From Ischnura elegans (taxonomy: Eukaryota > Arthropoda > Insecta > Odonata > Coenagrionidae), in NCBI RefSeq assembly GCF_921293095.1, contig NC_060252.1, forward strand, positions 1,426,001 through 1,490,000: 64,000 bases of DNA. Reading direction: 5' to 3'. Position 1 is the stretch's first letter, and every line of letters begins with the position of its first letter. This document shows positions 8,326-40,780 of this stretch, one piece after another. Made by a program: the position numbers and the translations under genes. A model generated the notes under the pieces. The model was given only the letters and a program-made list of their open reading frames with translations. It was not told the origin of the DNA and made no database searches.

Positions 8326-8906
8326 AGGCATTGATTGCGATTCGTTACCCACCATTAGTGTATTCATAATATACAAATTATTTGGTTTTAGAAATACCGG
8401 TTTAGACGAATGGCAATGGCCAATTTTTATCCTCATTTGAAAAAGGCCAGATTGGTACCCATACGATGCCACTCCACGTGATGTCACAGGGACATCGTCT
8501 GAGATTACCAATGCATGCATGAGGCACAGAGCTCAGGGGAACGTCTCCTAATAATCACCTATTAAAACTGCCTAAGGTTGGAAAGTTTTCTTCGTTTGAT
8601 AAGGTATTAATAACCCTTATTTAAGCCAAGCGCTACCTTCTAGCATGGTACTCTGCTACCTGCTAGCATCCTGCGTCACATCAGTGCTCAAAGCCTCGCC
8701 CCAAGGTCACCTCACTTGCGGCAGCGGGAACCAGAAAGACGTCACACGGGGTTTTCCCAGCATTCATACTTAGCCGTCGCGTTTTCACTTTTCATTTAAT
8801 CACGAGGAATAGATATCGTCATATAAAAATCTAAAAGCGTGAAATACGTACTCCAGGAGTAATAATCTTTCGATTTAGGCAATAAAAAAATAATAGGAAA
8901 CCACCC
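8326..8906 (-). repeat. GGGTGGTTTCCT MITE, copy 1 (one end truncated)
   Basis: Reverse complemented, it begins GGGTGGTTTCCTATTATTTT and runs parallel to the better preserved copy at 32204-32853; shared words include CCTAAATCGAAAGATTATTA and ATTTGTGTGTTATGAATACA-like text. TA follows the intact end. The distal end stops inside the word GGCATTGATTGCGATTCG, so it lacks the second terminus. No coding capacity. Confidence 0.6.
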
Positions 8907-8913
8907 TATTACC

Positions 8914-27270: not shown

Positions 27271-27424
27271 TACCCTAGTAGCACAAGAAATGTTGAGCAT
27301 ATGCTCAGATTATGTCAGGGAAATATGTTTTGCACACAACATTAGCATATGCTGAAAATATGTTCAGCAGATGTTTAAAACCACATGTTTTCAACATATG
27401 CTCGAAATATTTCCAGCATATGTT

Positions 27425-27760
27425 CAGACGATGTGTTGAGCATATTTTCATAGAAATATGCTCCACATGTGTTCAACAAAATATGTTGAGCATATATGCA
27501 TTGAAATATGCTCCACATGTGTTCAACAAAATATGTTGAGCATATATACGTAGACATATGCTCCACATGTGTTCAACGAAATATGTTGAGCATACATACG
27601 TAGAAATATGCTCCACATGTGTCAACGAGATATGTTGAGCATATTTTCATGTAAAAGCACTCAACGTGTGTCCAAGGAAATATGTCGAGCATATTTCATA
27701 GAAAAATGGTCAACGTATGTGTTCGACGAAATGTGTTGATCATATTTTCAAGAAAATATC
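27425..27760. repeat. Element A left subterminal tandem array
   Basis: About six copies of a 50-bp unit starting GTTGAGCATAT and containing ATGCTCCACATGTGTTCAAC. Copies diverge rightwards. The core TGAGCATATGCTCA-like words are palindromic. The same core forms the array at the other end of the element. Confidence 0.75.
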
Positions 27761-28034
27761 TATGCGTTCAGAGAAATATTTCGTCAATGAATCGAGGGGA
27801 TATGTTCGCTATAAGGCTACGTACAAGCACTAATCGTTTCGTGTACGCACATTGCGTACGGATGGCGAGAATTCTCTTCATTTTTTCCCCGAACGTTCCG
27901 GACGGATGACGAAGATTCTCGTCATCAAGGCGCGTCTACCTAATCAATTTTAAAGCGTACAATATACGTATTCGTTAGTACGTTTTCAGTTGTTGTTCGT
28001 TATTCATAATTCGAATTGATGCATTATTACGTTT

Positions 28035-28200
28035 CCCACACAGCACAGGATATTCCTGGGATATCCCATTTTGATCCCCAATATTCCTATTTCGTCCCAG
28101 CTGGTTATTGCGAATCATTATGGGATATTCCTGGGATATCCCGTTTTGATCCCCCATATTCCTATTTCGTCCGAGGGACATTGCGAACCAATTGTGGGAT
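28035..28200 (+). mobile_element. Family D terminus (CCCACACAGCA), copy 2
   Basis: Begins CCCACACAGCACAGGATATT and holds two copies of a unit with GGGATATTCCTGGGATATCC, TTTTGATCCC and TATTCCTATTTCGTCC. The word GATATTCCTGGGATATC is nearly palindromic. The opposite end was not found. It is followed by a GC-rich 270-bp stretch (28215-28490) of unknown nature. Confidence 0.55.
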
Positions 28201-28598
28201 AATCGCGGAATATTTTTTGACAGTGGGTTCGGGGTTCCCAGGGCGGGCCCCGCAAAGGATACGCTCTCGAGGACCGGTAACCAAGTCGGTGAATTATACG
28301 ACCGTGCCTCTCGAGAGGGGGAGGACAGAGGAAGGAAAAAGGATTGGAGGCATCGCCGCGATGAGAGCCCGACGACGCCTCCAGGGAAAGGACGGGAGAG
28401 GAAGGGCGGGGACGAGGAGTCCCGCACCGTCACAAGGCGGGCGGGTCCTACTACTAACGAAACCAAGCTTACGCTATTAATATTCTACCAATTCTAGTAG
28501 ATTTTCCTATAAGGAAGAAAAATCTATCGATCGAATCGGTAGATAATATTTTTTGACAACGGGCTTTTGTGTACGTATAAAAACTGAGTCACATGGGT

Positions 28599-28784
28599 CA
28601 GGGGCGGATCCAGGATTTCTTTCTGGGAGGGGCACAAGCAAGGCCGTATCCAGGATTTTGTTCAGGGGGGGCACAAGGATACCTCGTCATACAAAACGAA
28701 CGAAATGATAATGGGACCGTATTAAAAATCTAGCATATTTTTCAGGGTCTGGGGGGGGCCGTGCCCCCCCTGGATCCGCCTATG
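28599..28784. mobile_element. hAT MITE (CAGGGGCGGATCC)
   Basis: The left end reads CAGGGGCGGATCCAGG and the right end, reverse complemented, reads CATAGGCGGATCCAGG. The flanks ACATGGGT and ACAGTGGT are a near-match 8-bp target duplication. 186 bp, no coding capacity. It is inserted in the leader intron region of element A. Confidence 0.7.
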
Positions 28785-28914
28785 ACAGTGGTTACTAAAT
28801 GATATTACAAAATAATAAGAATAACTACTTAACCCATTCGAGATGGCGGAGTTTTCGTCTTAGCATGACTGCTGTACTGATCCCCAAGTGACTCTTCTTT
28901 CTAGTGGTACGGAG

Positions 28915-29235
28915 CAGGGGTGCAGCTATAGGAATTAAGGCTGGGGGGGGGAGGTTTAGGTGCAACTAATATGTACCGGGGTGTGTGGGGGTATGGAATA
29001 CACGCCAGGATAAGCGGTAGGTTCGAGATTAATAAATTGCAGAAATTTAAAATAAATGGTTCAAAATGGTGAGTTTTACGGCTTTAGGAGGGATATTTTA
29101 TTAATCCTTACGCTACCTATTCTATTAGTAATATCAATCCAATTAATTAAAATGGACTAAACTTAAAAATTTCTCTGAGCTCTGCGGGGGGGGGGGGAAT
29201 TTATCCCCCAAAACCTCCCCCTCGCTGCGCCATTG
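28915..29235. mobile_element. hAT MITE (CAGGGGTGCAGC)
   Basis: The left end reads CAGGGGTGCAGC and the right end, reverse complemented, reads CAATGGCGCAGC. It is flanked by a perfect 8-bp duplication GTACGGAG (28907-28914 and 29236-29243). Long G/C runs lie inside. A clear hAT-mediated insertion into element A. Confidence 0.82.
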
Positions 29236-29297
29236 GTACGGAGCATTTTTGGAGGACATTCGTTAAAAAGTGTCTCGCGGATAATCACACGGAGGTA

Positions 29298-29394
29298 GGG
29301 AGCACATGTGCTCCCTTCTCCCTGGAGAGGAGGGAGCACATGTGCTCCCTTCTCCCCGGAGAGGACGGAGCACATGTGCTCCCTCCTCTCCGGA
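29298..29394. repeat. Three-copy palindromic tandem repeat
   Basis: Three copies of the perfect palindrome GGGAGCACATGTGCTCCC (last copy with one change) are separated by CTTCTCC and GGAGAGGA words that are themselves complementary. Each unit can form a hairpin. Confidence 0.7.
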
Positions 29395-31003
29395 TTTACG
29401 ACCCTACCAGTGTCATCGGTTCGAGGTCAACTCATGGGTTGCTTATATGTGTTTGGCACATGGATAATTGTTTCTTGCACGTAAATTGCAGACTTTGAAT
29501 TGAATTCCTCATTTTTTTCTGAGCCTTGTCAAATTTTAAACGAAGTTCTAAGGTCAATATTAATGCATTTAATGCAGCATCAATTTCCATGTAGATGTTT
29601 ATAAAGAACTCGAAATATAAGTTAATATTTATCGTAAAATTTCGTTTAAAAATTGTAAACGCTGCTCAAAAGACAAAGAATTCAATTCTTAGTTTATATT
29701 TATTGAGAAAAGAACAAATATTTATTTCGAAAACTGACTGGATAAACAATTGCATGACCGCGGTCCCTTTTACCCCTAAGAGGGGTAATAAAGGCGAAGG
29801 GTCAGGGTAGTTGCTTCCGGACTCCGAGGGTCAAGCCTAAACCCCGCAGTATTGGGTCCCGAAACAAAGACGTCGTACACCCGCGACCGTCATGAAAGGG
29901 GGAAAGCTGGGAAACGTTTTTTCGCAGTTTTACTGGTTTTACTTTTGACTTGACATCCGAGTGACCACGTTTTTCGAAACTAGTGTCTTTGCGAGTGTCA
30001 GCTATTGAGGCTAGTGCGACAAAACTATATTTATCTGAATAAGCCAGTGTGGTTATATTATAATACATTATCACCTGTTTCACATTCATTTTTCGCGAGT
30101 GAATTTTAAACTGCTGTCACAAGTTCATTCTGTGTGACGCATTTGCTGGACTCCTCCGCCAGATTTCGACGGAAGTTTTTAAAGGTAAGTGTACGCGTAC
30201 TATTAATAGCGCGCTATTATACTCTTATTGTGAATTATTTGTCGCCTCCTGCCAAACCTGTTGATCTAGCTTGCATGGTATCATGTATTTCTTGTCACAC
30301 GTTAAGAATTTACATCGTTTATTTACGTCGGTTTCAGGTCATACCTGTTAACAACGTACTTTGTTTTACGTTTGGAAACATAATTCATACTCCAAAAAAG
30401 AGCCTATAGATACATAAGGGAATCAACAATATAACAGAAATGTAAGTAGATGAGTTCATTAATATTCGAAATTACGATTAGTACTCTAACTGTATGTTAT
30501 CGTAAAAGTTCTCATGTTATTGCTGCTAATGAACTGATCGTGCATATCATATAAATTTTGAATAAATCCTGCCCATTATAAATGCCTGGATGCATGGTGC
30601 ATGAAACCACATTTGTGTTTATATGTTAAATAAAAAATCCGGAGCCTGTTCGAATTTCGGTTCTGGGGGTCTGGATACACGTCATATAAACACGTTCAAG
30701 GTAATATCTGTTTGTGGATTACTTTTTTGCGCCGGAAATAAAACTTACAAGAATATATGAAACTAAATAGAATAGGTTCTGCTTTCCGAATGCATTTCTT
30801 GTGCGAATGCATGAACGAATAATGGAGCCTGATCCAATTTGGTTCATGCGTTCGAATGTGTTCCGTTCAACAAAAAAGTATTCACGCAAACAGACATAAA
30901 CTCGTACGAGTTAATGTGTTGTTTAAACAGGCCTTTACAACAGGTTCCTTCTATTCTCTCTTCACGCGTTCATGCATCTAAATTTTGGGGTGGCCAATAT
31001 GTG

Positions 31004-31132
31004 AAAGAAGGCTATCGGGCTTCCAGCCGGGTGGTCTCTCTCCATTCTGCCATCACTCAACACGAATCTAGTCCCTAAACGTCGGCAAAATGGAGAGAGA
31101 CCACCCGGCTGGAAGCCCGGATAGCCTTCTTT
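31004..31132. repeat. Long near-perfect hairpin
   Basis: The left arm 31004-31046 and right arm 31089-31132 are reverse complements over about 43 bp with a single bulged base, around a 42-nt loop. The arm begins AAAGAAGGCTATCGGGCTTC. It lies in the inferred leader intron of the element A transposase. A transcript would fold into a long double-stranded stem. Confidence 0.75.
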
Positions 31133-31689
31133 GACTATATTCGCCGGGAAAGCATAAGATCTTACTTCACGGTCGCACGGTGAATTTTCCCGTTAATTCT
31201 CGCGTTGATGCACATATATGTGTTTACTTGTACGTGTATATACAGCGTGGAGGTGGAACCCCCATCTATCGTTCCCGCATTGATCGTTTTCCCGCATTCA
31301 TCGTTCGCCGCTCCTGATCCCAAATTAAGTTTGATAAAGACAATGTAATTTTTTCCCGCATCTATCGTTCCCCAAGGTATTCCCGCATTTATCGTTTGAA
31401 GATCGCGGTCCCGTCGTCGTTTTCCCGCAACCATCGTTTGACAAAAATGAGACGAAGTGTTTACAACGTGTTATTTATGGCTAATAAAGGCAGGCATAGT
31501 TTGAATCTTCCCCAGGAGATTGAAATACGATAGGGAGAAGCTGAGTGCCGTGGGATAGTTACATTTCCCAAGCGCGTTACGCGTTACATAGCGCATTTCC
31601 TATAAGATCCGGTATCCATTTCCATTCCGCACTCGCCTCCCACCCTTCTGAAGCTTTCCTCTTCTCCGAAATAAAAAAACGCGCTGTGA

Positions 31690-31960
31690 TCGTATTATGA
31701 AGACCTTAGCTCCGAAAGAAAATTTCAAGTTAATCGAGAACAAAAGAAAGACACAAGTGAGAATATCAAAAGATGGACTAAAAATAATTGAAGATAAGAA
31801 TCCGGGCTAGAAATGCGTGAATATTGCAGAACGCCTCGGCATGTCCGCTAGCACATGACGGCAGCTGTGGGGGTAGAGCGAGATCCCTGGAGAAAACGAG
31901 AAATGGGATGAAGCCGAGGATCAGGTGGGCGTGCCGCTAACGATTAACGCCACATTGCCT
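31690..31960 (+). pseudogene. Tigger N-terminal helix-turn-helix remnant
   Basis: Frame text: LAPKENFKLIENKRKTQVRI, then KDGLKIIEDKNPG, a stop, then CVNIAERLGMSAST, a second stop, and GENEKWDEAEDQVGVPL. The IAxRLGxSxST motif is the recognition helix pattern of Tigger/CENP-B proteins. Two in-frame stops and no DDE domain. The same repeat is found at 712-1095. Confidence 0.55.
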
Positions 31961-32203
31961 CAATCATATTAAAAATTTAATTACTAGAAAGGAACATTTC
32001 AAATAATAAACTATTTTTGGTCTTTTTGATCCATCTCATAACTAATCACTGCGTCAGCGAAAGCATGGTTGTTTGAGACATAACACGCACATTTCTCTAG
32101 CAAAAGTCGAATCGACAATATGACCCAGGTGTTTCGATAAAGTAATAATATTCTATGCAATCAGCTAAAATCTTGTTTGAATCCATTAATGAATATCACA
32201 ATA

Positions 32204-32853
32204 GGGTGGTTTCCTATTATTTTTTTATTGCCTAAATCGAAAGATTATTACTCCTGGAGTACGTATTTCGCGCTTTTAGATTTTTAAATGACGTTATCTA
32301 TTTTTCGCGATTAAATGAAAAGTGAAAAATTTCAAGCGCGCAAAAACGCGACGCGTAAGTAGGAAAGTCCGTGCGACGCATTTCTGGTTCCCCCTCTCTC
32401 CTTGTGAAGTGACCTTGATCGAGGCTCTGAGCGCTGATAGGACACAGGATGCTAGCGGATAGCTGAGTACCTTCCTGTCTGGTAGCGCATGGCTTAAAAA
32501 AGGTTTATTAATACCTTATCAAGCGAAGAAAACTTTCCGACCTTAGCCAGTTTTAATAGGTGATTATTAAGACATGTTTCCCTGAGCTCTGTGCCTCATG
32601 CATGCATTGGTAACCTCAGACGATGTATAACTCCTATCCTCTCGTGTAGAAACTAGGTCCCTGTGACGTCACACGGAGAGGAATCGCATGGGCGCCAATC
32701 TGGCCTTTTTCAAATGAGGATAAAATTTGACCCTTGCCATTCGTCTAAACCGGTGTTTCAAATACCAAATAATTTGTGTGTTATGAATACACTAATGGTG
32801 GGTAACGAATCGCAATCAATGCCTATCGTTTTCTTTGATGAAGGAAACTACCC
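32204..32853 (+). mobile_element. GGGTGGTTTCCT MITE, copy 2, complete
   Basis: The left end reads GGGTGGTTTCCT and the right end, reverse complemented, reads GGGTAGTTTCCT. TA flanks both sides (32202-32203 and 32854-32855). It interrupts the Tigger-like element, whose sequence resumes at 32856. A one-ended copy is at 8326-8906 in the other orientation. Open frames across it are not genes. Confidence 0.65.
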
Positions 32854-33175
32854 TATTCACAAAAATCCAGCGTTTCCTGGGGACATAGGCAACCCGACAA
32901 ACATTCCCGCATTCATCGTTCTTTTTTCATTCATCCCCCTGAAAAACGACAGATCGAGGTTCCACTGTAATGTGCTGTGTAAACAGGTCTTTAGACATAA
33001 AGTTGCACATCTTAAAATATCGTGTAACCAGGCCTCGAGTTCATTCAATAAGCTTGTTACTGTTAGTACTAAAATTGAAATAAGGCCATAGAAATATGAT
33101 AACCACGTTTCTTTTTTCAGTTCTAATCCATATATTGCTCTTTCACTCTCATGGTAACAATTTACGGCGTAATGT

Positions 33176-35332
33176 ATGAATTATTTTGTGAATAATTATC
33201 GCAATGAAATGCCAACAGTAGATATGAGTAGTCATGCTTGGAATCGTGGTAAAAGAGTTGCGTTACTCTCAGATGTGGGAACGAGGCAGAGGAGGCGTAG
33301 GTTACGCATTGAGATGGCTCGAAAGGAGTGCATGGCTCGTACCATCGTTAGTTCTTCCACAAACCTAGTTGCCACTGAAGATAATTTGCCACAATCTGTA
33401 ATGGAGTGTGATAATTCATCCCAATTGCTCAGTAATTCAAGTTGTATTGAGCCTCGAGGACAACTTCAAGGCATCTCCAGCAAACATGAGGAATTGATGT
33501 TTAATTCTCTCCTCAATATGCCATCAATACCTACTCCAGATTGTGATGTCCCCTTGTCGTCTAGCGATGATGAATTAGAGGCCAGAACGACTGAACATAT
33601 TTTGGATCAGTTAGCTATTTGGGGTGCATCAGGAGTCAGCCATGAAAAAATTAACTCTCTGTTAGCAATTCTAAAATCCCATCCTTGCTTTGGTACCTTT
33701 CCAAAAGACGCACGGACTTTGTTGAAATCCCCCCGTGAAGTGCCTGTTATTGACATGGGAAGTGGAAAGTATGTGCACATGGGTTTAAACATGGCAATTG
33801 AGAGAGCACTGACAAATTATCCGGCATTAAGGGGGAAAAAAAAACTCCAGTTGATTTGCAACATAGATGGAGTTCCCATGGCACGTGGCTCAAGTAGTCA
33901 GATCTGGCCTATTTTGGTTGGTTTTCATGGTTTCAAAGACATATACCCAATGCCTATTGGTATCTATCATGGACCGGAGAAACCATATTCTGCCAATCAC
34001 TACCTGGAGCAATTTCTGGCGGAGTACAAGGCACTGCATGACCGTGGAATTATATTTAGCGATAAATTGTACCATATTAAATTACACAGTTTTGTGTGTG
34101 ATGCACCTGCACGTTCTTTTATTTTGAGAACCAAGGGCCATAATGCTTATTATGGGTGTGGGAAATGTAAAATCAAAGGCTCATATGTACAGAATAGGGT
34201 TGTTTTTTTGGGAACAGATGCTGAATTAAGGACCGATGCAGACTTCACCTGGCAAAGTGATGAAAATCACCACATTGAAGTATCTCCACTAGTTCAAATT
34301 CCTGGGTTAAAACTAGTTACCCAATTTCCCTTTGAGCCAATGCATCTTGCTTATTTGGGGGTCATGCGCAAGATGATAATTGCACTGATAAAAGGAAATA
34401 GATTTCATGTAAGGATTAGTGTGAAAACACAAGAATCTCTCTCCAAAATTTTGCTAGCCTCAAGGAACTACATTCCTCATAACTTTGAGAGAAAACCAAG
34501 GGCACTTAAGGATGTTATGTATTGGAAGGCTACTGAATTTAGACTATTTTTATTGTACATTGGACCTTTTGTTCTGAGAAACATGGGAAATTCTCAGGTA
34601 TACCACCATTTTCTCGCATTCCACATTGCAATGCGGATTTTTAGCTGTGAAGAGTACCTTAAAGTTAATTCTCTCTTCAGTTATGCAAGGAAATTAATTT
34701 TGTACTTTGTGAAGAACTTCAGTGTATTGTATGGTAAAGAATCTGTATCATATAATGTTCATGGCCTCCTCCATCTGGCAGATGATGTCTCCTCTTTTGG
34801 AGTACTGGAAAATTTTAGTGCGTTCACCTTTGAGAATTGTTTGCAGCGCATTAAAAATCTCTCGAAATGCTCAAATAAACCCTTACAGCAAATTTTCAAA
34901 AGATGTGAGGAAATGAATAGCTGTGGGTTGATGTGGCAGAGAACTGCTATCATTCAGAGTAAAGAAGTATGTGTGGAAGAAGGAATTCAAGACTCCGTGC
35001 TCGGAAAGCCCTTCTACAAGTATGTGGCATCCAGACATGGAAAAATTTCATGCAGTCGGCCAGACAATTGTGTGTTGCTGACTAATGGCGAGATTTTTAC
35101 TATCACCATGATAGGCACTGTGGAATCAGAGGTTTATATTAGGGGCCAGTCATTCCTAAATGTGAAGCCTGCATATACAGTGCCTTCAAACAGTATGCAA
35201 GTTGGCTTATTTGTTGTGAGTAATTATTCACATTATAAAACCATCAAGATTTGCAACGTGAAATGCAAGATGCTCAAAATACCAGACCCTACAGTTGAAG
35301 GATCCTTTTTTGTGGCATCCTTGCTACATTAA
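33176..35332 (+). CDS. CACTA/tnp2-like transposase of element A, intact
   Basis: A 718-residue protein in one uninterrupted exon, starting MNYFVNNYRNEMPTVD (the Met at 33206 is an alternative start). The acceptor CTTTTTTCAG at 33111-33120 lies just upstream. The N-terminal 140 residues are basic, then acidic and low-complexity. From about 200 the catalytic core is visible: LQLICNIDGVPMARGSSSQI with a first Asp at about 231, a second in HSFVCDAPARSF (about 309), and an acidic residue in FPFEPMHLAYLGVM (about 387), where related proteins often have Asp. HNAYYGCGKCKIKG between them is a likely zinc-binding site. This pattern is that of animal proteins related to the plant CACTA tnp2 transposase (Transposase_21-like), which cut and paste the element by binding its ends. 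It is followed 180 bp later by the DUF4806 gene. The lack of stops or shifts suggests recent or current activity. Family assignment is from memory of motifs; the exact catalytic triad is inferred. Confidence 0.8.
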   Translation: MNYFVNNYRNEMPTVDMSSHAWNRGKRVALLSDVGTRQRRRRLRIEMARKECMARTIVSSSTNLVATEDNLPQSVMECDNSSQLLSNSSCIEPRGQLQGISSKHEELMFNSLLNMPSIPTPDCDVPLSSSDDELEARTTEHILDQLAIWGASGVSHEKINSLLAILKSHPCFGTFPKDARTLLKSPREVPVIDMGSGKYVHMGLNMAIERALTNYPALRGKKKLQLICNIDGVPMARGSSSQIWPILVGFHGFKDIYPMPIGIYHGPEKPYSANHYLEQFLAEYKALHDRGIIFSDKLYHIKLHSFVCDAPARSFILRTKGHNAYYGCGKCKIKGSYVQNRVVFLGTDAELRTDADFTWQSDENHHIEVSPLVQIPGLKLVTQFPFEPMHLAYLGVMRKMIIALIKGNRFHVRISVKTQESLSKILLASRNYIPHNFERKPRALKDVMYWKATEFRLFLLYIGPFVLRNMGNSQVYHHFLAFHIAMRIFSCEEYLKVNSLFSYARKLILYFVKNFSVLYGKESVSYNVHGLLHLADDVSSFGVLENFSAFTFENCLQRIKNLSKCSNKPLQQIFKRCEEMNSCGLMWQRTAIIQSKEVCVEEGIQDSVLGKPFYKYVASRHGKISCSRPDNCVLLTNGEIFTITMIGTVESEVYIRGQSFLNVKPAYTVPSNSMQVGLFVVSNYSHYKTIKICNVKCKMLKIPDPTVEGSFFVASLLH

Positions 35333-35511
35333 TAGCCTCTTATGAGAAATGCTGCCATGGAAACATATGTTAAGTTAACATGGTTGGTATACCTTACGCT
35401 TTGAAATTTGCTTGGAGAGAGTGTGGTGTGATTAGTAGCACATAAATTAGTATCAGCATGAGAAGTGTTTGAAGATGTTGAGGGATTGGAGGAAAAGTTA
35501 TTGTATTTCTC

Positions 35512-37593
35512 TTGTTTATGTTTTACAGGGAGAGGACATGGGTAGTTGTTGAATTCACAAATGTCAACAATGAAGGAGATGCTGATGTAGCAGCTGTGCC
35601 TTCTTCTTGGCTAGTAAATGATGAAGGAAGGCAGCTTTGTTACTTCCCTGAAGAGGAGAGCAGTCGATTTAAAAAATTTTCGATAATGAATTGTATTTCC
35701 CCTAATGTCTCTTGGCCAAGGCATGAATGTAGAATATTGCCAGGCACGACTGCAGGTATGTTTTCATTTCATAACTTTCTTCCCTTAAAGTAAGGCAGGG
35801 AAAATGCTGCAAATAGTTTATTCTATAAAAAAACCATATGGGATCAAGTGTTGAGTATCTGAACCAAAAAGGTTAATTGCATAGACTAATTAATTATTAT
35901 TTCTTCCAGATACATATGGTGAAGTCTGCCAGTTTGAAAATGCTGCCATTGAAACAAGTGACTCTGACATCCACAAACCCCGTGGTCGTGGCCTCCGGAA
36001 AAAGAGGCCTAGCAAGCGGGTAAGAGATCAAATGCCAGAGGAAATGTCAGATTCAGAAACGGAGGAGAGAGCGAATGGGAGAGGTATTTCACCTCCTCCA
36101 ATATATGGTAAGACCTGAATGAGTTTTGTGATTAAATGATGACTTCAATTCAGGTTTTTCCAAAGTTCTAACATTGTTTTCTAGGCCTGTGAGTATTGAA
36201 TACCTTAATTTTGTTTATTTGCAGTTAACATCACTGATTCACATGAGCCTGCTACGCAGCCTGAATCCAATGACGTGCAAGACTCGTATCCAATCGTGGT
36301 TTTGCCAGGAATCAGCAATAAAAATGATGACATTGAGATGGTGATTGACCACAGAGAGGACTTCACCATGGTGCAGCAGCCGTCAAGAAATGGAGCAGAA
36401 CGCTGCACATGCAGCCATGGAAATGTGGACGATAAATTAAATGCCATTCTCAGTAAGAGCAATTAATATGACATTTTACTTGAGAGGTTGTTATGAGTAA
36501 TGATGAGTAGAGAAACATCTTGTAGTTTTTCAGTTGACTGTTTGATTGTTTTTTCATGCTACTCAGCAATGTAATGACACTTCACTGAAATGTTAGGATT
36601 TTTAATATGTACTACCCAGAAAAATGCCTGAAACGTACCATGAAAAATAGCCTGTTACCTCTTTTAGGCAAACTGGTGAAAATGGAGCAGCAAATGAGTG
36701 AGCAGGCTAGCATGCTAGCAACGCTGACTAAGGGGGGTGGTAACCCAGCAACCCAGGCAAACCACTCAATGGAGAAGACTTTCCCATTGAAAACTCTGAA
36801 GGGGTTCGAAGAACTGGAATGTTCCCTGGAAAGTGATCCAGAGCTTTTTGAACAAGTGGTAGGTTTTGCTTTTTTTACTTTATGCTTGTTGAATGAACTA
36901 GTGTCCACCTTGAAAGTCAGCTTCTTGAAATCCAAAATTTCAGGTACAAACTCTTCAAATACAAGGGGGCAACAGTGTGGGAAAGGCAGTATACAACATG
37001 CTGTACTTCTGCATGACAGATGATGTGGGGTCCACCTTCACCTTCAAGGGACTGAAGAAAGAGAAAAAGGGGTTTTGTTCGACCCAATTATGCTCAGCAG
37101 TGTTCAGTAAGTATCCAAGTATGGAATATATATATATTTTATTGGCATTTGGAATCATAATATCTCTATCATGATGATTTACTATTACAAATAAATCAGA
37201 ACTCTAGATATTTAATACCAATATATGTGCACATAATAAAATGATTTTTGGCTCAAAATGTTTTCACTTATGATGCAAAACATCCCCTGCTATTGCTCCT
37301 TATCTAATTTTGACACCTGCAAATTTTACATTTTGCAAGTAAATGGTCATAAACAATTCATGAAAGAGGAGAATCATCGCCATTTACCCATTAAATAAGT
37401 ACTACAGTTTATTTTCCATTATGTGGATAATGTTGTTTTCTGTTAATTTTCACCTACAGAGGCTCTGCGGTGTCGTGCCATGTTTGCCAGTGTTGATAGG
37501 TGTGTCTTTCAAGACTTTGCTGGGGAGTGGCTGAGGCAGGCATCATGCCGCCTGAGGAAAGTCAAGGGAAATAAGGAGCAGGGAAAGGCTTAA
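35512..37593 (+). CDS. Six-exon DUF4806 accessory protein of element A
   Basis: Exons 35512-35755, 35910-36107, 36225-36452, 36668-36858, 36944-37106, 37460-37593, all with GT/AG borders and open joins; 385 residues, ending in TAA. ATG 35512 or 35518 could start it, but TTTTACAG at 35521-35528 is a good acceptor, so the first coding exon may begin at 35529 and join an upstream exon. Residues 1-81: WVVVEFTN, then VAAVPSSWLV and LCYFPEEE, an N-terminal module often seen with this family. Residues 104-118 are a basic nuclear-localisation-like segment (KPRGRGLRKKRPSKR). Residues 224-245 look coiled-coil. From 262 the DUF4806 pattern runs: FPLKTLKGFEELECSLESD, VGKAVYNMLYFCMTDDVGST, KALRCRAMFASV and EWLRQAS. 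The domain has no known activity; it is common in transposon-associated animal proteins. By position I infer a helper for the transposase. Confidence 0.78.
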
Positions 37594-38737
37594 TACACCA
37601 TCCGTCGTTGGAATGATGACAATTTTAAGCCCTTAAACCCATTTATGCCGAATGTGAATTTGAAGTAGGTACAGCACTTCCAGTGAATTTTGTCTACTGT
37701 GAAAAACCAGGAAAAAAACATAAATTTCACTATTGAGATAGTGAGAACCCTGTTAGTGAACCTCTATAAACATCGTAAACCTTCATACTTCGCAGTGATC
37801 ATACCACCCCTACAGTCCCGTCAGATTTACATGTAAATTTAAATAAGGCAACCCTCTTTTTAGTGAACCTCTTTATCTTGAAAAACCTCTGCTTATACCG
37901 TGGACCATCATGACGTGGATCAAGTTTAAGTTTGAGTTAATTCAGTCATGTCTCAAATAAATTGTATTAGGAACAATGTGATTCATATAAACCCTCAATG
38001 ATAAGGTATTGTTTTGAGATATTACTGTATATATAATGCAATGTATGAGAAAATTATTTGAACTCAATATTGATTTAGATTTTTGTGTCAATAAATGACT
38101 GACTATTGCTTCATTTTATGGTTCTTTATTCCCATGCAATCCTTTATCGAGTGAATGGTCCATAGGATGTCAGCTAATGTACTGCAATCATTAATAAGTT
38201 AATGGGACCGAAGTGTTTTCAGTTCAGGATGTCAATATTTTATGTATCACTTAAAGCGGTGTGCTGTCGTGCAACACTTTCAGATACATTTGTGCAGTGG
38301 AGCCGCTATGAGGTAGGTATGAAAGGGGTAGAAAACTTCCTGACGTTAATGTTTTACAGGTTTTAGCTGTCCCTAATGCTTACCTCACACCCTTGTGTAG
38401 AAAGTGATGAAACATCTGCTTTATATATCCTTCCCTTCCTTTTTTTTCTTCACAAACCCTTTTCATACGACCCTTCTGTTTGTCATTGGACAACTTTCAC
38501 TTGATCAGCTATTGGTGTGATCCAATTATGTATAATTCTATGGAATCCATAATTTATGTACAACAGATGTAGCAAAATCTCTATTGAGAAGTATATATCT
38601 AGCGTGAAGGTCTGTGATCACGCCCTAAGTCCATAGTGAAAGGTACAAAAAGGAGAGAATTTGTGCATCTAAAGTATAGGCATTGCAAAGTTATAAGGGA
38701 ATACATTTGATAAGGGAGATAATTTGATGCAACCTCA
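37594..38737. other. Element A 3' region, no gene
   Basis: AT-rich. Possible polyadenylation words AATAAA near 37957 and CAATAAATG near 38089 could end the DUF4806 transcript. No other coding signal. Confidence 0.4.
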
Positions 38738-39010
38738 CCCTAGTGAATATCTCCATAGGATTTATTTTTCCTATTGTAATTTGACAATGAGAAACTATTA
38801 TTCATGTAGGAAAATTTTATGTTTGTAATAAATGTTTCCCATTGTCAAACTACAATAGGAGAACGAAATTCCATAGAGATTTTCACTGGCCCCTATGAAA
38901 AAATTGTATAAACCTGTATAAAATTTGTATACATTCTAATTCAATTGTCATGAAAATGTATTAGAATGCATACAAATTTTATACAGGTTTATACAATTTT
39001 TTCATGGGGG
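38738..39010. repeat. Compound palindromes inside element A right end
   Basis: Two adjacent foldbacks. The first has arms CCTATTGTAATTTGACAATG and its near-complement (38776-38861), within a larger pair starting CCCTAGTGAATATCTCC. The second has arms of about 50 bp starting CCCCTATGAAAAAATTG and (reversed) CCCCCATGAAAAAATTG at 38890-38940 and 38960-39010. They may be small non-autonomous insertions; the CCC starts recall the terminal style of elements A-D. Confidence 0.55.
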
Positions 39011-39045
39011 AGGGTATGCTGAATATATTTTGGGAGAATGATGGG

Positions 39046-39437
39046 CATATGTTAAAAACATATGTTGAGCATAAGTGGATAACATGCTGAGCATATGTTG
39101 AAAACATATGTTGAGCATAAGTGGATAACATGCTGAGCATATGTTGAAACATATGTCGAGCATGAGTGGATAACATGCTGAGCATATGTTGAAAACATAT
39201 GTTGAGCATAAGTGGATAATATGCTGAGCATATGTTGAAAACATATGTTGAGCATGAGTGGATAATATGCTGAGCATATGTTGAAAACATATGTTGAGCA
39301 TAAGTGGATAATATGCTGAGCATATGTTGAAAACATATGTTGAGCATAAGTGGATAACATGCTGAGCATATGTTGAAAACATATGTTGAGCATGAGTGGA
39401 TAACATGCTGAGCATATGTTGAAAACATATGTTGAGC
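39046..39437. repeat. Element A right subterminal tandem array, 46-bp unit
   Basis: About eight copies of a 46-bp unit starting TGCTGAGCATATGTTG and containing AACATATGTTGAGCATAAG and GTGGATAA, with only a few substitutions between copies. The recent homogenisation is much better than in the left array. The unit itself contains inverted words (CATATGTTG / CAACATATG), so each copy can form a small hairpin. Long open frames in all three minus-strand phases are a by-product of the array. Confidence 0.85.
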
Positions 39438-39614
39438 ACATTTTGAGAATGTGCCTGACATATGTTTTCCACTTGTGTTGAACATATGTTGAGCGTATGC
39501 CTTGCCGGACATTTACATATGCTCAGCATGTGCTCAAATTATGTTGAACACATCTTACATATGTGTTGAAAATGCCTTGAACATACTCTGAACACAAATT
39601 GTGCTACTAGGGTA

Positions 39615-39906: not shown

Positions 39907-40780
39907 TTTCGTAGTAGTAGTAGAATTGAGATAAAGGGTGCGTCGACGGCAAGATCATTTTGCACCACTACTCAATCGTTTGATTCAAGACTCATTATAA
40001 ATGGATCTTTACTATGCAATTTTTTAACATAAAAAAGAGGGAAGCTTTTAAATTTTGTTGAAAAGACCTATTTCCTTGAGAAACAAAATTGTACTATTTA
40101 TATTGGGGGGGTGGTCTCCTAGAATAGATTCTAGGTCCCCATTCAGATTGAACCGTGTCCGCGCATCACGGTATTTGTCGCACTCTGTCAAGATATGTCG
40201 GATGCTTAAAGGGCACCTACACTCGTCACATTGAGGAGCTTGCTTCTCTTCGGTAAAAGGAAAGCCATGAGTCAGAGGGCAGTGCCCTATCCTCAAACGA
40301 GTGATAACTACTTCCTCCCTTCGATTGATCCTGGTAGAGGAAGGCCAAGCTGACGTTGTATGTTTGATGCTTCGCAGTTTATTGTTATTCAAAGTCCTCC
40401 ACAACTCCCTCCACTGTTCAAGTACAACATTTTTTAGTGACCCTCTTAGGTCTTCGTACGGAACTAGCGTTGATTTAATCTCTTCGTTAGTAAGAGCTTC
40501 CTTGGCCAACAAATCAGCTTTTTTGTTTCCGCGTATCCCCGCATGTCCCGGAACCCAAAGAAAGCAAACACTTATTCCCTTGTTCATGAGAGTCAGCAGC
40601 GTGGCATGAATGTGTTGAACAACTGGATGCATGGGTAAGAAGTCAGAAATGGATTGTAAGGAGCTACGGGAGTCGGTGCATTTGACAAACGAGCCATTTT
40701 CGTCACTCAAGGCTTCCAAAGCCATTTTAATTGCGAAGAGTTCCGCCGTATAAATGCTGCACAGCGGATGACTTTCAATT
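39907..40780 (-). mobile_element. 5'-truncated I-like non-LTR retrotransposon
   Basis: The minus-strand frame 40725-40048 (225 codons, intact to its stop) continues upstream to about 40775 as CSIYTAELFAIKMALEAL. It shows RNase H (CTDSRSSLQSI; VPGHAGIRGNKKADLLAKEA) and the C-terminal CDECRCPLSIRHILTEC cysteine motif. It aligns with the C-terminus of the large element at 58524-60821. The 3' end also shares the words GTCGACGCACCCTT and CTACTACTACTA with that element, so both are of related families. Truncation at the 5' side is typical of target-primed reverse transcription. Confidence 0.85.

Follow-up and report, generated by a model that had tools for sequence, protein, structure and literature searches.

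The stretch of DNA described here, referred to in its entirety as the window, comprises 64,000 nucleotides from the odonate Ischnura elegans (RefSeq assembly GCF_921293095.1, contig NC_060252.1, positions 1,426,001 to 1,490,000 of the forward strand). It harbors a complete TRC-type element, the animal counterpart of the CACTA transposons, which occupies 12,340 bp, nested insertions included, at positions 27273..39612. On the evidence of its tips, target duplications and genomic copies, this element is very probably a cut-and-paste transposon carrying the only unbroken transposase of its own family found among the 63 scored of 887 candidates in a transposase search of the genome. The transposase is RAG1-like and is predicted to cut the tips of the element, and recognition of the subterminal arrays is likely the task of a companion protein. 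The element is a member of a group that has already been described (DeMarco et al. 2006, PMC1636069); the comparisons below also draw on PMC12730594, PMC2613891 and PMC4298943. Features lie on the plus strand unless stated otherwise.

The ends of the element

The element is bounded by 14-bp terminal inverted repeats of the sequence CCCTAGTAGCACAA, located by pattern search at 27273..27286 on the plus strand and at 39599..39612 on the minus strand. The two tips are perfect, and represent the sole two matches at two mismatches or fewer in the whole window; shuffled sequences average 0.30 matches, and two matches are reached in 6 of 100 shuffles. The dinucleotide TA stands on both sides (27271..27272 and 39613..39614), where it is taken as a target-site duplication from the 2-bp rule observed in other copies. 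The limits, the inverted tips and the flanking TA are thus exactly those proposed in the initial annotation of the window.

Inward of the tips are two subterminal regions. The left one (27287..27800) contains an array with a period of 50 bp (27404-27755) that is built on words TGTTGAGCATA, and the right one (39038..39598) contains an array of 8.7 copies with a period of 46 bp (39038-39438), the units of which form repeated hairpins when folded as DNA (z -13). The word TGTTGAGCATA occurs six times at the left end and five times at the right end, and is found neither in the interior of the element nor elsewhere in the window. Moreover, 30 9-mers are common to both ends in inverted orientation, a number equalled by only one of 450 random segment pairs. 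These counts bear out the earlier claim that a single family of words occupies both ends.

Within the 1.72-Gb genome of I. elegans, CCCTAGTAGCACAA is found at 232 places (114 forward, 118 reverse), whereas the reversed pattern, used as a control, is found at three (2 + 1). Pairing was judged on the first 100 places listed, of which 86 form 43 inward-facing pairs and 14 are unpaired. The pairs are mainly small, with 39 spanning 2.6-4.7 kb and four spanning 12.3-14.0 kb. The co-occurrence of the two ends, on which the initial annotation had made its reading depend, is therefore observed.

Both flanks were read for 45 copies, made up of 40 short copies, four long copies (9.1-14.0 kb) and the copy in the window. 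An exact 2-bp duplication adjoins the tips in 44 of these (39/40 short, 4/4 long and the window), the sole exception being a short copy, L032, with a 3-bp match. The dinucleotide that is duplicated varies among the 40 short copies, with TA in nine, AT in seven, TT in five, AA in four and nine others in 14, L032 accounting for the last. TA is hence one of 13 different dinucleotides, and two of the nine TA-duplicated short copies had been picked from a list of TA-flanked tips. Genome-wide, TA adjoins 45 of the 232 tips, and a weak symmetric base preference surrounds the target duplication. TA on both sides, as originally noted, holds for the copy in the window, but TA as a fixed target is rejected.

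Paralogous empty sites, which it had been proposed to look for, were found for at least two copies. They contain a single copy of the duplication, and correspond to L020, for which there are two such sites, and to L040, where the site lies within a tandem repeat. A paralog of the L051 site, with 85% identity, runs straight through the junction and has gaps elsewhere. The paired tips, together with the 2-bp duplications in 44 of 45 copies, place the true ends where they were first drawn, and with the addition of the empty sites they demonstrate that the ends are real and that members of this family have moved in the past.

The transposase

The transposase is encoded by an open reading frame of 718 amino acids from its first ATG (33176..35332), in a frame that remains open for 719 codons from stop to stop (33173-35332), in agreement with the uninterrupted gene reported earlier. 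Translation more likely begins at a later ATG, at 33209, which gives a protein of 707 residues, and this form is used for numbering. Homologous transposases are abundant, with 513 proteins at E<=0.001, and identity does not exceed 41% to any protein listed (the best 120 of the 513). A confident structure model predicts that residues 128-579 (33590..34945) form a core that matches RAG1 and Transib in fold. The CMC/CMCT clade of DDE transposases is characterised by D, D and E residues together with the motifs C(2)C and H(3-4)H and one additional H (PMC12730594), and all of these are present here. Candidate catalytic residues D220 (33866..33868) and D298 (34100..34102), C317 and C320 of the C(2)C motif (34157..34168), H379 (34343..34345) and H518 and H522 of the H(3)H motif (34760..34774) are found in 120 of 120 aligned sequences. 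The third candidate catalytic residue, E542 (34832..34834), is found in 119 of the 120, with one Q.

At the position of the TRC box A motif, [LVI]-D-x-[LM]-H-x3-L-G, the window transposase reads FEPMHLAYLG, with E in place of D and F preceding it. A Pfam scan of this protein gave no match to Transposase_21 (PF02992), a family matched by one of 13 aligned members, and PDB sequence searches with the transposase returned nothing informative.

The last ~120 residues of the protein match BAH chromatin-reader domains by predicted fold only (residues 580-702; 34946..35314), and lie outside the region covered by the RAG1 structure matches. BAH was not among the families listed by Pfam for 35 C-terminal tails, under filters that drop most matches with E >0.1, and no BAH chain was matched in PDB profile searches. 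A BAH-like tail in such transposases was also not found in the open-access literature searched, and the predicted domain is possibly a new one for transposases. If real, the tail would join a chromatin reader to a RAG1-type recombinase core and would bear on the choice of target sites. Such a domain could read chromatin and so steer integration or expression.

The companion gene

A second gene begins with an ATG 9 nt past the transposase stop. It is composed of seven exons (35342..35382, 35529..35755, 35910..36107, 36225..36452, 36668..36858, 36944..37106 and 37460..37593) that join at GT-AG sites to give a single open frame. The DUF4806 domain starts in the fifth exon and continues in the sixth, and the seventh ends in the stop codon. 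The seven exons, exon 1 included, equal an annotated I. elegans protein of 393 amino acids (P0121) in every letter, and the spliced product is 100% identical over 379 amino acids to I. elegans LOC124162229. The companion gene is spliceable, as the initial annotation had it. Four more annotated companion fragments are located on three other contigs. Two homology searches with the companion returned I. elegans proteins only; a DUF4806 companion is also recognisable in a predicted ant protein. Structure prediction was uninformative for this protein, with a predicted local distance difference test score (pLDDT) of 46.6, and a DUF4806 companion was not found as a partner of TRC elements in the open-access literature searched.

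By eye, a donor-like GTAAGT is seen at ~30183 and acceptor-like sites at ~33121 and ~35334. Use of these candidate sites could join a 5' leader to the transposase or, alternatively, to the companion. A CACTA-like transposon with correctly placed ends, two proteins and plausible autonomy, as initially envisaged, is upheld.

Relationship to known elements

TRC elements were named by DeMarco et al. (2006, PMC1636069), who describe second proteins made by alternative splicing in addition to tips that begin CCC and duplications of 2 bp. The same tips and length of duplication were reported in 2015 for a TRC element of Hydra. The element in the window likewise has tips that begin CCC and a 2-bp target duplication. 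The TRC element of Tribolium castaneum starts with CCCTAGTAGCAC (PMC1636069), the same first 12 bases as the tip found here, and shares the 2-bp duplication and the same broad group of transposase. It differs in its 27-bp inverted repeat and its size of ~5.2 kb, as opposed to 14 perfect bp and 12.3 kb, and neither arrays nor a companion, both present here, are described for it in the accessible text. SmTRC1 of Schistosoma mansoni (PMC1636069) also has CCC tips, a 2-bp duplication (in 7 of 14 copies there) and a second open reading frame for a small protein behind that of the transposase, with most copies internally deleted. Its inverted repeat, however, is 54 bp long, and no detectable conservation is reported for its second protein, whereas the companion described here is recognisable in the ant protein.

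The plant CACTA or En/Spm elements, such as Tgmt* of soybean (PMC2613891), mirror the present element in encoding two proteins, in bearing subterminal repeats, partly as stem-loops, at either end, and in having tips that are conserved while the arrays change fast, as is seen below in two groups of short copies. They differ in their CACTA tips and 3-bp duplications, the latter length being seen in one of 40 short copies here. The fungal EnSpm-like ESTA elements (PMC12730594) share the CMCT clade motif, a resemblance to RAG1 and 2-bp duplications, but they are defined by duplications of TA, which is one of 13 dinucleotides in the present family. RAG1 and Transib have the core fold predicted for the window transposase, and differ in their tips and with respect to the BAH-like tail, to which the RAG1 matches do not extend. 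The target duplications of Transib and RAG1 are 5 bp, a length that differs from the 2 bp found here.

Alternative explanations

Several other readings of the element have to be weighed. The 14-bp ends could have been paired by chance, with the true element being larger or smaller, and the 14 unpaired tips among the 100 listed would fit with this; it is nevertheless rejected by the 43 inward pairs and the 44 exact duplications, and is virtually impossible. It is also very improbable that the element represents a CACTA-like superfamily not yet described, with CCCTA tips as its defining trait. Although the tips are not CACTA and the identity of the transposase to the proteins listed is low, TRC tips have been in print since 2006 (PMC1636069), with the Hydra element following in 2015, and there are 513 homologous transposases. 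A new superfamily is thus rejected, and the suggestion that the tips were new is not borne out, CCC tips having been published and the Tribolium tip being the same over 12 bases. Assignment to ESTA or to Transib/RAG in place of TRC draws on the TA at both sides of the element, on the fold match to RAG1 and Transib and on the RAG1 resemblance of ESTA transposases, but is hardly tenable. ESTA membership is rejected as the duplications are TA in just 9 of 40 copies, and Transib membership is rejected by the 2-bp duplications and by tips that match those of the Tribolium TRC element.

The question of current mobility is a closer one. We consider it likely that the TRC element in the window mobilises dozens of shorter copies whose ends match its own. 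The alternative is that the window copy is immobile, with frames that are open only from youth, and that the short copies are, or once were, moved by the transposase of a sister lineage, located elsewhere or now extinct. This is unlikely but retains real weight because the interiors of the short copies that share the window's ends (group 1, below) derive from a sister lineage, with identities to the window of only 72-84% in DNA and 41-56% in amino acids. Two further points also weigh against mobility of the window copy, namely that purifying selection on its transposase gave no signal in the comparison with broken copies, and that its 5' region has received nested insertions. On the other hand, the left ends of group 1 are mostly ~97% identical to that of the window, the only transposase of intermediate identity listed (C16, 63%) carries 10 stops, and, of the three copies compared, the one in the window has the lowest number of private changes.

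Relatives and short copies in the genome

The 40 short copies fall into two groups. Group 1, with 22 members, shares the ends of the window element: all 22 left ends match its left subterminal region, with 93-98% identity over 233-439 bp or, in L033, 100% over 75 bp, and all 22 right ends match at 85-91%. The interiors, where they can be aligned, contain decayed scraps of transposase and companion. Eleven group-1 copies of 3.6 kb are 98.6-99.9% identical, and a left-tip pattern specific to the group-1 type of array is found at 62 places in the genome at one mismatch or fewer. The short copies have undergone a recent expansion. Group 2, with 18 members, matches neither end of the window element. 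The words TGTTGAGCA and TATGTTGA are both absent from all 18, and a longer tip, CCCTAGTAGCACAAAAAGGATTATATCT, is present at both ends in 16. A single 14-bp tip is thereby shared by two subterminal arrays that are unrelated to each other, and this suggests separate reading of tip and array.

No internal stop is present in 46 of the 63 transposase candidates scored, and these comprise 44 members of other TRC families (35-45% identity), the window and one piece of a broken copy. Some members of the other families have identical scores on several contigs. Several TRC lineages seem to have been active recently in the I. elegans genome. The kin of the window element at C12:78.09M and C5:39.26M have ~97% DNA identity within the portions of 32855-36826 that the reads covered, and both contain stops; in 3490 aligned bp, private differences number 28 in the window, 65 in the C12 copy and 48 in the C5 copy. 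A further relative at C5:134.5M, with 89% amino acid identity over residues 476-707, also has stops. A sibling copy of 13.45 kb (G000:C7:2470931-2484380) has ends that are 91-98% identical to those of the window, and contains a second inward-facing pair of TRC tips nested at 2478395-2482714.

Proposed mechanism

In the mechanism that we propose, the transposase would cut the tips by a DDE-type cut-and-paste reaction, with D220, D298 and E542 and the zinc-type C2-H2 residues, and would then join them to a 2-bp staggered target that leans towards AT. The DUF4806 companion, as a dimer or a higher oligomer, may bind the palindromic units of the arrays, and in doing so would draw the two ends of the element together. 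A parallel is provided by TNPA, which pairs the ends of En/Spm. TNPA is reported to bind its own subterminal repeats (PMC2613891). The element, or a near-identical copy, would also act in trans to mobilise those derivatives of 2.7-4.7 kb in which the same arrays are present.

More tentatively, and with considerable doubt, the animal TRC transposase may be a RAG1-like core fused to a BAH reader, forming a counterpart of RAG1 together with the PHD domain of RAG2. It would operate a two-key code, in which the transposase reads the shared 14-bp tip and a DUF4806 companion that evolves fast reads the exchangeable arrays, such that one tip could come to reside on unrelated arrays within a genome. 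This animal CACTA-type element has defined limits, one unbroken transposase and an annotated companion, and is accompanied by dozens of short copies that moved recently and have matching ends. It offers the material required for testing how animal CACTA elements work, a question left open by DeMarco et al. (2006, PMC1636069).

Nested insertions and neighboring features

The size of 12,340 bp is inflated by nested insertions. One of these, of 652 bp (32203..32854, no strand assigned), has its own AT duplication and ends AGGGTRGTTTCC, and is missing from the two broken copies that are readable there; the comparison involved three loci (L010-L012), of which L010 and L012 represent one copy on C12. 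Kin of this insertion are found in the window at 8326-8910. Beside the right array, a near-perfect palindrome (38890-39010) with 57-nt arms of 93% identity and a 7-nt loop is likely a small nested element, and a further inverted-repeat unit was spotted by eye at ~38741-38892. A 34-bp unit is repeated three times in tandem at 29297-29398, with the palindrome GGAGCACATGTGCTCC in each. Finally, just beyond the right end of the element, a frame on the minus strand (40048-40779) encodes an RNase H domain (Pfam E 3.8e-10) and is probably the remnant of a retroelement.
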